Below are positions 15,397-24,584 of a DNA stretch of 32,630 nucleotides, in pieces. A model generated the notes under the pieces. It did no database searches. It was not told where the DNA came from and saw only the letters and a program-made list of their open reading frames with translations. The translations under genes were made by a program, and so were the position numbers. Source of the DNA: Chloroflexota bacterium (GTDB lineage Bacteria; Chloroflexota; UBA11872; VXOZ01); contig JAPOQA010000023.1 in the NCBI GenBank assembly GCA_026710945.1, positions 1 through 32,630 of the forward strand, in the 5' to 3' direction. Position 1 is the stretch's first letter. The number at the start of each line of letters is the position of its first letter.

Positions 15397-15536
15397 GAGG
15401 CTGTCTCATAAGTCGACTCGAAAAGCCATATCGTGCTTCGACAAGCTCAGCATGAACGGATTGTTGCCTGTTACGTTCGCCCTGAGCCTGTCGAAGGGCA
15501 AGTCTACACCGAGCGATGCATTTATGAGACGTCCTC
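15397..15536. mobile_element. 140-bp MITE-like element inserted in a hairpin loop
   Basis: Terminal inverted repeats GAGGCTGTCTCATAA (15397-15411) and TTATGAGACGTCCTC (15522-15536) match at 13 of 15 positions. The element is flanked by a perfect 4-bp duplication TTGG (15393-15396 and 15537-15540). Removing it with one TTGG restores CCCTCTCC-TTGG-GGAGAGGG, an intact hairpin repeat of the kind found throughout the window. Internally, 15436-15458 and 15474-15496 form an imperfect 23-bp hairpin. No transposase is encoded. The 4-bp duplication and hairpin-loop target suggest mobilisation by an IS1182- or IS4-like enzyme (inference). Confidence 0.75.
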
Positions 15537-15639
15537 TTGGGGAGAGGGCCGAGGTGAGGGGATTTCCGTTTACCCCATCCTCTTTACCAGTAAGACTGAT
15601 ACGCAAAAATGCAATAATGGCAAAATAGCTCCCAGATTG

Positions 15640-15735
15640 TGGGAGTTTCCCCCTCACCCCCGTATCGTGTCGATACGCTGTATCGAGTACGGGGCAGGCT
15701 CTAACCCTCTCCCCAGGGAGAGGGGACTTTCCCGC
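15640..15735. repeat. Inverted composite repeat (GAGAGGG hairpin with inserted block)
   Basis: On the minus strand this is the canonical CCCTCTCC...GGAGAGGG...GGGTGAGGG repeat interrupted by a GCCTGCCCCGTACTCGATAC block extended by GTGTCGATACG. The same interruption is at about 197-240 in the opposite orientation and, shorter, at 10764-10795. Confidence 0.65.
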
Positions 15736-17102: not shown

Positions 17103-17157
17103 GGTGACAAACGACTAGCCCGATAGTGTATTTCTTGCCGCGAGGAGGAGCGAAGGC

Positions 17158-17976
17158 ATGCGAAGCTTAGCGCACCGTATCGTACACGCACGGATGTTCG
17201 AATACATCCTCGTCTTGCTCATTGTCGGCACGTCGATTCTGCACGGGCTGGCTACTTCTGACGTCTTGTTTGAACGGTACCAAGTCTGGATGGGGTTGTT
17301 CATCATTCTTATGCTGCTCGTGCTCGTCCTGGAAGTCTTCCTCAAGATACTAGCAGTCGCGCCAAGAGTAGACCGGTATTTCAGAGACCCTTGGAACGTC
17401 TTTGACTTCCTCGTAATCACTTCCATCATAGGTGGAATCGCCGTCTTTGAGTTTGCCGCCGATTTCGCGCTACTCGTCGTTGTCGTGCGCCTGCTGCGGC
17501 TGCTTCAGGACTTAACGACCATCAAGGCAATGCGCTTAATCCTTACAACGATGTTTCGCTCCATACCGGACATGGCGCACATCCTGATGCTGCTGTGCAT
17601 CGTTATCTATCTGTACGCCGTTTACGGAAATAGTCTTCTTGGGGATCACGACCCGGAGCACTGGGGAACGCTGGGCGATTCCGTACTATCGCTCTTTCAG
17701 GTGGTAACACTGGACGGCTGGTCAGACATCATGCAAACTGCGCTCAATGCAGTGCCGTTCGCCTGGGTCTACTTTGTCAGTTTCGTAATAATCACCACGT
17801 TCATCGGGGCCAACCTGTTCATTGCCGTCGTTGTGAGCACTATGGACGAAGCCAAGGAAGAGCGTCTGCGCATGTTGGAAGTGCCCGCGTCCCGGGAAGA
17901 ACTGCTCCAGGAACTGCGCACGACCCAAGACTCCCTGCGGCGCGTTGAAGAAGCCCTGCAGCGCACGCCGGAGTAG
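17158..17976 (+). CDS. Bacterial voltage-gated cation channel, calcium-type filter
   Basis: Single-domain six-helix channel subunit of the NaChBac/NavAb class, expected to form a homotetramer in the inner membrane. Visible parts: S1 (about 13-33), S2 (44-66), S3 with DPWNVFDFLVI (77-87), S4 (103-119), S4-S5 linker MFRSIPDM (132-139), S5 (140-160), pore loop, S6 (202-228) and a coiled-coil tail (245-268). The selectivity filter TLDGWSD (184-190) differs from the sodium-type TLESWSM/TLESWAS and resembles the engineered calcium channel CavAb (TLDDWSD) and the native calcium channel CavMr, which also has glycine at the fourth place. S4 has only R111 and R114 in register, with Q117 next, where relatives have four arginines. 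The length of 272 is typical. GAGGAGGAG (17142-17150) gives a strong ribosome site. Confidence 0.93.
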   Translation: MRSLAHRIVHARMFEYILVLLIVGTSILHGLATSDVLFERYQVWMGLFIILMLLVLVLEVFLKILAVAPRVDRYFRDPWNVFDFLVITSIIGGIAVFEFAADFALLVVVVRLLRLLQDLTTIKAMRLILTTMFRSIPDMAHILMLLCIVIYLYAVYGNSLLGDHDPEHWGTLGDSVLSLFQVVTLDGWSDIMQTALNAVPFAWVYFVSFVIITTFIGANLFIAVVVSTMDEAKEERLRMLEVPASREELLQELRTTQDSLRRVEEALQRTPE

Positions 17977-18213: not shown

Positions 18214-19281
18214 TTAGGACTCAATTGCACCCGAAGGTTGGTTTTCTTCAAGCCAGCCTTGCTCTTTGAGAATTCCGAGCGCTAGGCGAATTTGGCGCTC
18301 CGAGAATTGTCGCTTGCGTCTGCCCCAGTCATACGTGTGGTCGATGATCTCTGCCTCTGATGCGTTCGGATGCTCACGGGCCACCCAGTGCACCGTCGTC
18401 AGCAATTCGAGACCGAAAGGCGATTCAAAACCGTCGACTAGCATTGAAACCCTGTCAAAGCGCGCGCCGGTTTCCAGATGGTTTTCGAGGAAAGCGCGGG
18501 CGTCATCTATAGCGCCGGGAACCAGTTCGAGCTCTTTGTTAGGCGAGTCACCGCCATCGGCATAGCCTGCAATGAGATGACCCTCAACGGCCCTTAAGAC
18601 GTGCCGTAGGTTTTCGGCATACGGGCCAAGTGGTTTCCTCTGATATTTGAGTCTTAAGGGCTCGCCCGCTTCCTGCAGAAAGTACATGAGCTTATGGACT
18701 TCCAAGAGCGTCACCGACGTATCAAGCAAACTGCGGACGTATTGATCCATCAAGCCGACCAAGGCCGCCCTTCCGGGGGTCATCCGTGGTACGTCGGTCG
18801 ACTGATTTACCTTCCCATCTGCTGGCCCGCCACCCGGTTCGAAGACGATTACTCTGACATCAGTGAGTTCCTGCAGCCCTACCTCAATACGTTGGCGCAC
18901 TGCTTGCCAGTCCAGCTTACCCAATCCGCTACCCAGGGGAGGGATTGCAATTGAGCGTATGTCTCGCTCTCTGATTTCTTGCGCTAGAGCTACAAGACCA
19001 GCATCAATATCCTCTATTCGGCTCTTACCACGCCAGTGGCGTTTGGTAGGGAAATTGATTATGTAGCGCGGACTGGCTAGGTAGCCAGTCTCAAACACGA
19101 ACATGTGACCCGGTTTCACTTCGTTACGCTTACATGCAGCAGAATATGCCTTGAAATTCTCAGGATAAGCGTTCTTAAATTGCAGCGCAATTCCACGCCC
19201 CATGACGCCGACGCAATTGACACTGTTGACAAGGGCGTCGACATTTTCGGCAAGAATGTCGCCAGTCTTGTACTCTATCAT
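18214..19281 (-). CDS. darG: DarG antitoxin: macrodomain DNA ADP-ribosylglycohydrolase
   Basis: Antitoxin of the DarTG system: the N-terminal macrodomain strips ADP-ribose from thymidine in DNA, and the C-terminal domain binds the toxin. Motifs: VDALVNSVNCVGVMGRGIAL (14-33, ADP-ribose loop), INFPTKRHW with K80 (the residue reported as catalytic in characterised DarG), and PPLGSGLGKLDW. The C-terminal part with HKLMYFLQEAGEPLRL and KPLGPYAENLRHVL is the usual DarT-binding region. The chosen ATG (19279-19281) has GGAG seven bases upstream and gives 355 residues, normal for the family. It follows the toxin gene by 19 bases, so the pair is an operon. All expected domains are intact, so the antitoxin should work. 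Confidence 0.96.
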   Translation of the reverse strand: MIEYKTGDILAENVDALVNSVNCVGVMGRGIALQFKNAYPENFKAYSAACKRNEVKPGHMFVFETGYLASPRYIINFPTKRHWRGKSRIEDIDAGLVALAQEIRERDIRSIAIPPLGSGLGKLDWQAVRQRIEVGLQELTDVRVIVFEPGGGPADGKVNQSTDVPRMTPGRAALVGLMDQYVRSLLDTSVTLLEVHKLMYFLQEAGEPLRLKYQRKPLGPYAENLRHVLRAVEGHLIAGYADGGDSPNKELELVPGAIDDARAFLENHLETGARFDRVSMLVDGFESPFGLELLTTVHWVAREHPNASEAEIIDHTYDWGRRKRQFSERQIRLALGILKEQGWLEENQPSGAIES

Positions 19282-19300
19282 GTCGGCACTCCATTCCCTG

Positions 19301-19948
19301 TCAATAATACCAGTGCGGCATAATCTCGACACTTGGGTGGTGGCGAGGTTTTCCTATGGCTTTCTGGACTAGATTTTGAATGTGCTGGGAACGCACGCCA
19401 ATGCGTGACACGAGTTCCCAAGGGAATAAGCGTTCGATCAAGAATTCTGCCTGCTTGCTTTCCCTGCATTCGCTCCAATAGTGAGCTTTCACCGCATTCC
19501 AGTCCACCCTATCTAAATCCGCCAGATCCGAATAGTCATCAAAAAACCGTGAACCAGCATTTGAAGTTGTGAAAGCCCAGCGTTGACTATTCTGTTCCGC
19601 CCAGGCGACCACCTCGTGCACATCTGCCTCCAAGTGAATAATGGGAGCTTGGCCGTCTCTATACTCCAGTTCAGGATGGTCGGCCATGTGGATTACGTAG
19701 AGCATGACGGATCGCGGGCAGAAATAAAACGGTACGCAATTGCCCACATACAAGCCTGGATGGCTATTGAGAGTCAATACATGCAGCCTCCGGTACTTGA
19801 TGTTATTCATGCCAATAGTGGTTCCCGAAACCCGATGCCGCGAAATCTCCAAGTCTGACCACAAGCATTCATTCGCGACAATAGATGGCAATCGATCAAC
19901 GTGGACAATATGGTATATCTTCGGTCTGGCGGGTACCGGCTTAGTCAA
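19301..19948 (-). CDS. darT: DarT toxin: ssDNA thymidine ADP-ribosyltransferase
   Basis: DarT transfers ADP-ribose from NAD+ to thymidine in a short motif of single-stranded DNA, blocking replication; such pairs act in phage defence and growth control. The 215 residues show IYHIVHVDRLPSI (11-23, NAD-binding H13), the KYRRL arginines (51-55), VPFYFCPRSVMLY (72-84), FFDDYSDLADLDRVDW (135-150) and ESKQAEFL with the likely catalytic E168. The start is TTG at 19946-19948; an in-frame TAG two codons earlier excludes any longer form. AAGGA nine bases ahead could serve it, but a 10-codon open frame with a strong ribosome site ends in a TGA overlapping this TTG, suggesting coupled translation. DarG follows after 19 bases. 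Confidence 0.95.
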   Translation of the reverse strand: MTKPVPARPKIYHIVHVDRLPSIVANECLWSDLEISRHRVSGTTIGMNNIKYRRLHVLTLNSHPGLYVGNCVPFYFCPRSVMLYVIHMADHPELEYRDGQAPIIHLEADVHEVVAWAEQNSQRWAFTTSNAGSRFFDDYSDLADLDRVDWNAVKAHYWSECRESKQAEFLIERLFPWELVSRIGVRSQHIQNLVQKAIGKPRHHPSVEIMPHWYY

Positions 19949-22802: not shown

Positions 22803-24584
22803 TCAGGAGCGGCGGTTCCTCTGGTGAACACCGACGTAGCCGACGACCACCCGGCCGCGTTCATCATCCCAGGCGAACGCGATTCGGATCGTCTTTTGCG
22901 GGTCGGCGCTGGTACCCTTGCCCAGGTGCTCGCCTAGCTCATAGCGTCGGCCCTCCACCACGGTTTCGTACCACTCTACGAACTGCTTTTTGGTTGCGTT
23001 GGACTGATGCGGCTTGTACGACCAGCCGGGACAGGATTTCTTCAGGCGCTCTTCGAAGCGCGGATCCTCACCGGGTTTCGTCCACCGCAGGTGATGGTAG
23101 TCCGTGGCAAGCCACACCAGCGCGGCGAACGCCTCGGCCGGTCTTTGGAACGGACTCTCCTTATCGGACTTCGAGTTGAGGGCAAAAACCAGTTGCTCGG
23201 GAAACAGCTCCTGTGCGCGCGAGATTGCTTCGTTGACGTTTTTCACCTGCTCGAACGGGGACGCCCCGTAGAAGCGCCGCCAGTACTCCTCCAAGTCGGG
23301 CCCCTGCTTCAGCTTGGCTCTCAACTCGATATTCTCGCTGTCCAACGACCGTCTTTCCGCTTCCACAGAGGTGTTGGCTTGGGCGAGCCGGTCGTGCTCA
23401 GATTGCAACCGGTCGATCTCATCTCTGAACCACCCGCGCTCTCGTTCGAGCTGCTCGCAATCGGAGAGCAGCGACTGGTAGTCCTCCCGAGACGGCGTTT
23501 CTTGCGTCTCCGCGTCTGCGACGGAGTCGGCCCGCTCGGCTGCGGCGGGCGGCGTCCGGTCTTGATCGGTCTCCTCACCCGCCGCGGCGGCACCGGGTAC
23601 GTCGGCCGCATCACCGGGCGTCTCGCCGCCGTTCACACTATCCATTGCTGGAAACGTGTCTGACCATCTGGTGACGATTTCCAAGATAGCGGCCTCCCGC
23701 TCCGCTCGTACGGGCGCCCGTTCTTCCTCCTCCTGCCTGGAAGGCGCTTGAGGGCGAACCCCCTGGTACTCCGCAAGGTTGCGCCTCAAGTCCTCCGCCA
23801 AATCCAGCGCGTCGGTGAGGCCGGCCGGTCTTGCAATGGCCGTTTCCGCCCATGCGCCAATGTCCAGCGCAAGATAGGCCAATTCCGTCGCGAATTCGTC
23901 TTGCATCTCCCGGAAAGTCTTGCGGCAATGCCTGACAATGACCCCGATTCGCTCGATGGCGATATCGTCGGCCATCTCGCTGACAACTGTCACGAATGCG
24001 CCGATTTCATCCCATTCAGGGGTGTCGAGGGGAAGCTCACTCAGTTCGTGGATCCACGAGGTGAGTAGGGGAGAGGTTACCGCGGGCCCCACCGCCATGC
24101 CAGAGAGGTAACACACCATCATGCCAACGTCGTCCGCATTGAAATCGGGATTCTGCTGGACGATCATGTCAACCGTATCATTCCACTCGACCCGCAGCCA
24201 AAACCCGTTGAAGATTCCCTGCCGACGGTTTGGACCTTCCACCGGCAGGTCTTGGCTGCGGAGATGGCGCTCGACGAGAGTGTGAAGCTCTTGCTGCGAT
24301 TCCGCCCACGCCCGGAGCGCCTCGCCGAAGAGCCGGTCGTTGCCGTACTTCACCACCTCCCCCAGCACGGGCCGCTTGAGCTGGGAAGGGTGCGCCTTAC
24401 TCGCAGAGCGAAAGCCGGGCACCCGGATGCTCTCGTCTATTGCCGAGTCGAGTCCTTTGCGTACGCTGCCGGACGCCTGGCCGCGACTCTGCAAGACGCG
24501 CTCGATGAGAGCATCGAGGAAGTCGAGCGGGAACGCGCCTGCGATGCTGGTTAAGGGGATGCCCTCTTCGGGTACGGTCATCAT
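22803..24584 (-). CDS. Coiled-coil protein with distinctive C-terminal domain, function unknown
   Basis: I cannot name this 593-residue protein. It has a helical N-terminal part (1-275), an acidic, Ala/Pro-rich linker (about 276-365), a coiled coil at 366-426 (SLLSDCEQLERERGWF and on) and a compact C-terminal domain at 434-593: RRFYGASPFEQVKNVNEAI, FALNSKSDKESPFQRP, KSCPGWSYKPHQS and finally KTIRIAFAWDDERGRVVVGY with VGVHQRNR. That ending resembles the last strands of RelE/HigB-type RNases (inference only). No membrane span is seen. Translation starts at ATG 24582-24584 or the next codon; the ribosome site is poor. Its neighbours (DUF3574 convergent, binding lipoprotein upstream) do not suggest a role. 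Confidence 0.8.
   Translation of the reverse strand: MMTVPEEGIPLTSIAGAFPLDFLDALIERVLQSRGQASGSVRKGLDSAIDESIRVPGFRSASKAHPSQLKRPVLGEVVKYGNDRLFGEALRAWAESQQELHTLVERHLRSQDLPVEGPNRRQGIFNGFWLRVEWNDTVDMIVQQNPDFNADDVGMMVCYLSGMAVGPAVTSPLLTSWIHELSELPLDTPEWDEIGAFVTVVSEMADDIAIERIGVIVRHCRKTFREMQDEFATELAYLALDIGAWAETAIARPAGLTDALDLAEDLRRNLAEYQGVRPQAPSRQEEEERAPVRAEREAAILEIVTRWSDTFPAMDSVNGGETPGDAADVPGAAAAGEETDQDRTPPAAAERADSVADAETQETPSREDYQSLLSDCEQLERERGWFRDEIDRLQSEHDRLAQANTSVEAERRSLDSENIELRAKLKQGPDLEEYWRRFYGASPFEQVKNVNEAISRAQELFPEQLVFALNSKSDKESPFQRPAEAFAALVWLATDYHHLRWTKPGEDPRFEERLKKSCPGWSYKPHQSNATKKQFVEWYETVVEGRRYELGEHLGKGTSADPQKTIRIAFAWDDERGRVVVGYVGVHQRNRRS

Follow-up and report, generated by a model that had tools for sequence, protein, structure and literature searches.

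A candidate calcium-preferring channel with a remodelled voltage sensor in a small clade of Chloroflexota

Measurements exist for only a handful of native prokaryotic calcium channels, of which CavMr, described in 2020, was reportedly the first. The window analysed here (32,630 nucleotides of contig JAPOQA010000023.1 from a Chloroflexota bacterium) encodes a channel subunit with the pore motif TLDGWSD, and the question it raises is whether this is a further native calcium channel and, if so, what opens it. The original prediction was of a voltage-gated channel in which a calcium-type selectivity filter sits in an otherwise standard NaChBac-class subunit. The reading we favour, and consider reasonably probable, is a homotetrameric one-domain channel of the ancestor-like BacNav type with a calcium-favouring pore and a remodelled sensor, belonging to a small Chloroflexota clade; the analysis shows its open reading frame, fold, filter, clade membership, selection and sensor changes, whereas its tetramer, ion preference and gating are what we infer. 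The host genome (G000; 3.5 Mb, 98.4% complete) is that of a marine, probably sponge-associated bacterium, the sponge link being suggested by the names of related MAGs.

The channel gene and its relatives

The features of the locus to which the text refers are as follows.

17158..17976 (+), six-helix cation channel subunit of 272 amino acids with an ATG start (open reading frame and translation, Pfam, orthologues, AF2/Foldseek)
17143..17148 (+), AGGAGG ribosome-binding site, 9 bp upstream of the channel ATG (read from the sequence)
17323..17325 (+), S2 charge-transfer site, Leu56, replacing NavAb F56 (alignment)
17464..17535 (+), S4 and start of the S4-S5 linker, with Val108, Arg111, Arg114 and Gln117 in the columns of NavAb R99/R102/R105/R108
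17707..17727 (+), selectivity filter TLDGWSD, residues 184-190 (sequence and column alignment)
17758..17862 (+), S6 pore-lining helix, WVYFVSF...ANLFIAVVV (Pfam Ion_trans to residue 235; AF2 helix 202-240)
17893..17964 (+), C-terminal helix, probable tetramerising coiled coil (AF2 helix 246-269; spacing from the sequence)

Translation of the forward-strand frame puts TLDGWSD exactly at residues 184-190, as first read, and the motif shares an alignment column with TLESWSM of NavAb and TLESWAS of NaChBac, which confirms it as the true pore filter. The product belongs to the Ion_trans family (Pfam E 8.5e-37 over residues 12-235) with S1-S6 and a P loop in the bacterial one-domain architecture. 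An AlphaFold2 model built with 44 related rows has a mean pLDDT of 77.5 (about 90 in the pore), and the solved structures that match it best in Foldseek are NavAb and CavAb (E about 5e-11). The C-terminal helix carries Leu249, Leu253, Thr256, Leu260, Val263 and Leu267 at heptad-like positions and, judging from these residues and the modelled helix, is probably the coiled coil expected of a BacNav.

For the phylogeny, NavAb, NavMs and NaChBac (checked against PDB entries) and NavCt (from a PDB chain alignment) served as references, with CavMr, NavPp and CatSper left out. The window channel groups with ancestor-like types at 97/99, apart from all four reference sodium channels; it is split from the canonical sodium BacNav clades at 97/99 and 99/93 and is without a TLESW filter. 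Its separate branch includes members with TLEDWTD, TLEGWVD and TLEGWT[DE], and by branch and by the filter types of these members the channel is assigned to the ancestor-like BacNav (AnclNav) type, the CavMr/NavPp group. Membership of a sodium-channel clade is rejected for the references used, and the phylogeny that the original prediction had named as fatal to it, with TLDGWSD among proven sodium channels, was not obtained with them. Within the ancestor-like branch, the window orthologues form a small clade with L040 (Caldilineaceae) and L038 (Dehalococcoidia), supported at 100/99 and, when the filter and S4 columns are removed, at 100/100.

Any match to the channel is found in only 18 of 400 genomes of the phylum, and a scan of genome contigs returned 80 loci, from Chloroflexota, Nitrospirota, Nitrospinota and Pseudomonadota. 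Besides the window channel, the host genome holds a paralogue on contig C7 (filter TFDGWTD, S4 complete) and a channel of the potassium type, marked by TVGYGD. Of five congeners, two have an orthologue of the window channel (81% and 78% identity, filters TLDGWSD and TLDGWSE); the paralogue type is present in all five and across much of the class, its filter there being mostly TLEGWT[DEV]. Orthologue dN/dS (NG86) is 0.12-0.24 overall, 0.14-0.24 in the sensor and 0.10-0.19 in the pore, indicating purifying selection in both parts; orthologues with such values rule out a pseudogene or a chance motif. Two damaged copies of the same type were also seen: a broken one in G406 (contig C1, 325142-325620; L121, L123) with the filter TLDGWSN, some 5 kb away from the L038 channel, which is intact, and an internally shortened one in the Caldilineaceae genome G433 (L124, L128) with TMDDWGN and most of the voltage sensor missing.

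The voltage sensor

The more unusual part of the subunit is the sensor rather than the filter. Its S4 reads V108-R111-R114-Q117, as against R-R-R-R in NavAb, NaChBac, NavMs and 84 relatives. The first of these positions, R1 (NavAb R99), is Val, Leu, Met or Ile in all six clade rows and Arg in 84/84 other relatives, and Leu replaces the charge-transfer Phe (NavAb F56) in 6/6 clade rows, the residue being Phe in each of the 84 relatives as well as in NavAb, NaChBac and NavMs. Two asparagines are also lost: the NavAb N25 column holds Thr or Ser in the clade (Thr in the window channel) and Asn in 74 of 84 relatives, and the N49 column holds Ile, Val or Trp (Ile in the window channel) and Asn in 63 of 84. 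The change of R4 (NavAb R108) to Gln is found in the window genus alone. Kept throughout are R2 (R102), R3 (R105) and the countercharges E59 and D83 (NavAb E59 and D80). The channel therefore lacks the classical sensor set of R1-R4 plus an S2 charge-transfer aromatic and retains the acidic countercharges of S2 and S3; with a V-R-R-Q S4, Leu for Phe and two Asn gone, it cannot be called an otherwise standard NaChBac-class subunit. Clade-specific changes fall in 13 of 39 columns of the voltage-sensing domain versus 11 of 63 pore columns, an excess that is not significant (p 0.09), and the case for remodelling lies in which positions changed, not in their number.

How far these changes affect gating is the point on which one alternative turns. 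The hydrophobic constriction that the S4 arginines (R1-R4) cross in NavAb includes F56 (PMC13095418). With R1 and F56 lost from all six clade rows, and R4 also from the window genus, the domain could have ceased to sense voltage at all, leaving a constitutive, ligand-gated or tension-gated calcium leak, or else a leaky sensor; any of these would be compatible with a calcium pore. However, R2, R3, E59 and D83 are invariant, a Leu can still plug the constriction hydrophobically, and purifying selection on the sensor (0.14-0.24) implies that it is maintained and not decaying, so that we consider this alternative possible but on balance doubtful. An S4 with only R2 and R3, acting past Leu in place of the charge-transfer Phe, would open the pore with weak voltage dependence, at a shifted range, or in response to another stimulus. 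Voltage gating is thus probably weak, shifted or absent, weak or shifted dependence being the most likely reading and a non-voltage stimulus a possible one. The predicted label 'voltage-gated' is accordingly the less certain half of the original title, given the loss of R1, R4 and F56. As a clade that is both remodelled and under selection, these channels offer a natural test of the minimum number of S4 charges and of which charge-transfer residue suffices.

Ion preference of the pore

Relatives outside Chloroflexota, including those from Nitrospirota and Pseudomonadota, carry TLEDWTD, the filter of NavPp, and those within it carry mainly TLEGWT[DE], with one TLEGWVD, the filter of CavMr. Asp at position 3 appears within Chloroflexota in TLDGWTE, TLDGWTN, TFDGWTD (the paralogue of the host genome), TMDGWSN, TLDNWTQ and TLDDWIS. 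The pairing of Asp3 with Gly4 is therefore not rare among kin, being found also in the relatives with TFDGWTD, TLDGWTE, TLDGWTN and TMDGWSN. Since the Asp3+Gly4 rows are rejected as a single clade (AU p 8e-80, tree without filter columns) and position 3 changed at least four times on the tree without filter and S4 columns, the combination arose repeatedly in Chloroflexota. The same TxDGWxD pattern is seen in the solved CatSper structures (CatSper3 TVDGWTD, CatSper4 TQDGWLD), and the domain III filter of Cav3.1 is SKDGWVD. A combination first taken to be rare among native bacterial channels thus recurs in several Chloroflexota lineages and in eukaryotic CatSper3/4, and the calcium-type filter is less rare than first claimed. 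Literature searches on Chloroflexi voltage-gated NaChBac relatives and on TLDGWS found nothing.

Taken together, the Chloroflexota provide a natural series of filters in single-residue steps on similar backbones (TLEDWTD, TLEGWVD, TLEGWTD, TLDGWTE, TLDGWSD, TLDDWIS), which makes the roles of Gly4 and of Glu or Asp at position 3 in calcium selectivity directly testable. The second channel of the window genus went from TLEGWT to TFDGWTD separately in L024 (G000 C7:67465-68247) and L025 (G001), with Glu kept in G002-G005; and the sister channels L042 and L059 (98/96 support) carry TLEDWTD and TLEGWVD, a position-4 difference that makes them a natural pair for the Gly4 rule.

Measured channels calibrate these filters. 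CavMr (TLEGWVD) has a PCa/PNa of 218, which falls to 7.7 in G4D, 11.9 in G4S and 40.1 in V6T (TLEGWTD), whereas NavPp (TLEDWTD) passes Na+ better than Ca2+ (0.31) and reaches 41.4 in D4G (TLEGWTD), so that the calcium determinant measured in both is Gly4 (PMC7041947). TLEGWTD has thus been measured at about 40 in two backbones, and the class-wide filter can be taken as calibrated to be calcium-selective. The window filter departs from TLEGWTD at two places, Asp3 and Ser6, and has the Gly at position 4 (Gly187) characteristic of CavMr-type filters. Because the TLEGWTD of its close relatives is calcium-selective when measured, and Asp3 gives the CatSper3/4 pattern, a calcium-preferring pore is likely. 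Four copies of TLDGWSD would form two acidic rings, Asp186 and Asp190, giving each tetramer 8 negative charges, the number in CavMr; Gly187 would open the filter entrance so that calcium is favoured over sodium, and K+ and other monovalents would be imperfectly excluded.

Among the nearest known channels is CavMr (Meiothermus ruber): it too is a one-domain Ion_trans protein with Gly4, Asp7 and 8 filter charges per tetramer, lying outside the canonical sodium clades. It differs in having Glu3 and Val6 for Asp3 and Ser6, and a long loop with Cys following the filter (PMC10120453), where the window channel has a short filter-S6 loop of about a dozen residues with no Cys, as well as its remodelled sensor. 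Engineered CavAb (TLDDWSD, from NavAb) is identical to the window filter at six of seven positions and is among the top fold matches; it has Asp4, whose replacement by Gly in the window channel removes four charges, and a NavAb-clade backbone. The idea that the window filter combines the calcium features of CavAb and CavMr does not survive as a simple sum, since the two mechanisms differ and Asp4 in the CavMr background reduces selectivity (PMC7041947).

A non-selective but calcium-permeable pore of the NsvBa type is the main rival to a calcium-preferring one. NsvBa (Bacillus alcalophilus, TLDSWGS) is a native bacterial channel of the NaChBac group, with 61% identity to NaChBac and NaChBac-like voltage gating, that shares Asp3 with the window channel, is non-selective owing to that residue and admits Ca2+ and Ba2+; the single change D186E makes it sodium-selective again and ends its conduction of Ca2+ and Ba2+, and NaChBac E192D is less sodium-selective and admits Ca2+ (PMC4225499). 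In addition, CavMr needs Val6 for full selectivity, and CavMr-V6T, polar at position 6 like the Ser6 of the window channel, already passes K+ and Cs+ (PMC7041947). The pore may thus be calcium-permeable but poorly selective, by analogy with the relaxation that Asp3 brings in NsvBa. On the other hand, NsvBa has Ser4 rather than Gly4 and no acid at position 7; and the rule that a Gly next to the acidic site confers calcium selectivity whether that site is Glu or Asp (PMC10120453, where two examples are inconsistently named in the text) predicts a selective pore here, with CatSper3/4 sharing TxDGWxD. We hold the non-selective pore to be possible but less likely. The predicted calcium-selective or calcium-permeable pore stands as far as Gly4 (PMC7041947) and the value of about 40 for TLEGWTD carry it, and is weakened by the Asp3 that makes NsvBa non-selective (PMC4225499).

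Although speculative, the calcium-preferring reading can be taken a step further: the channel could be a native calcium channel with a CatSper3/4-type filter whose sensor was re-purposed under selection, so that voltage opens it weakly or some other stimulus does, making it a prokaryotic, homotetrameric analogue of calcium entry with weak voltage dependence that evolved within the ancestor-like BacNavs. We offer this tentatively; the likeness to CatSper is one of filter pattern alone, CatSper being a eukaryotic sperm hetero-complex with accessory subunits.

An obligate heteromer of the window subunit and the full-sensor paralogue (contig C7, TFDGWTD) is improbable. The paralogue type does accompany the window orthologue in 3/3 genomes that have it, but many genomes have the paralogue type without the window type, and in the Caldilineaceae genomes G407 and G408 the window type is the sole match. 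Obligate partnership is thus unlikely and a homotetramer plausible, no second subunit being needed. Least credible of all is a NaChBac/NavAb-like sodium channel with an inconsequential filter difference: the fold is that of NavAb, and NavPp (Plesiocystis pacifica), of the same ancestor-like group by filter type and with more filter acid, prefers Na+ to Ca2+ (PMC7041947), but NavPp differs in its Glu3 and Asp4, its D4G mutant is calcium-selective, and the tree sets the window channel apart from the sodium channels tested.

Genomic surroundings

A divergent ankyrin-repeat gene adjoins the channel in all three orthologous loci, and the same site in G002 has the ankyrin gene and no channel. There is no conserved operon, the ankyrin gene staying where the channel is absent, and the neighbour genes in the window were not found beside the other members of the clade. 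Flagellin, a Na_Ca_ex exchanger and a Cation_ATPase_C pump were all looked for in the host genome without a hit; it does have three E1-E2 ATPases, of which one looks copper-type from its metal-binding N-terminus. With neither Na_Ca_ex nor Cation_ATPase_C found, these searches point to no evident path for calcium export, which we count against the calcium-channel reading.

A DarG-DarT toxin-antitoxin pair (18214-19948, -; PADLOC DarG 5.5e-134, DarT 4.7e-66) lies between the channel and a DUF3604 gene; at the congener locus L027 these neighbours are present but the pair is not, and the G002 site has a shortened DarG and no DarT. The intergenic frames at 15406-15657, with LRQAQHERI and PEPVEG-like peptides, look like an interspersed repeat and not genes. 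A 593-residue protein (22803-24584, -), with no Pfam family above the cut-off, occupies the same place in congeners at 66% (L027) and 54% (G002).
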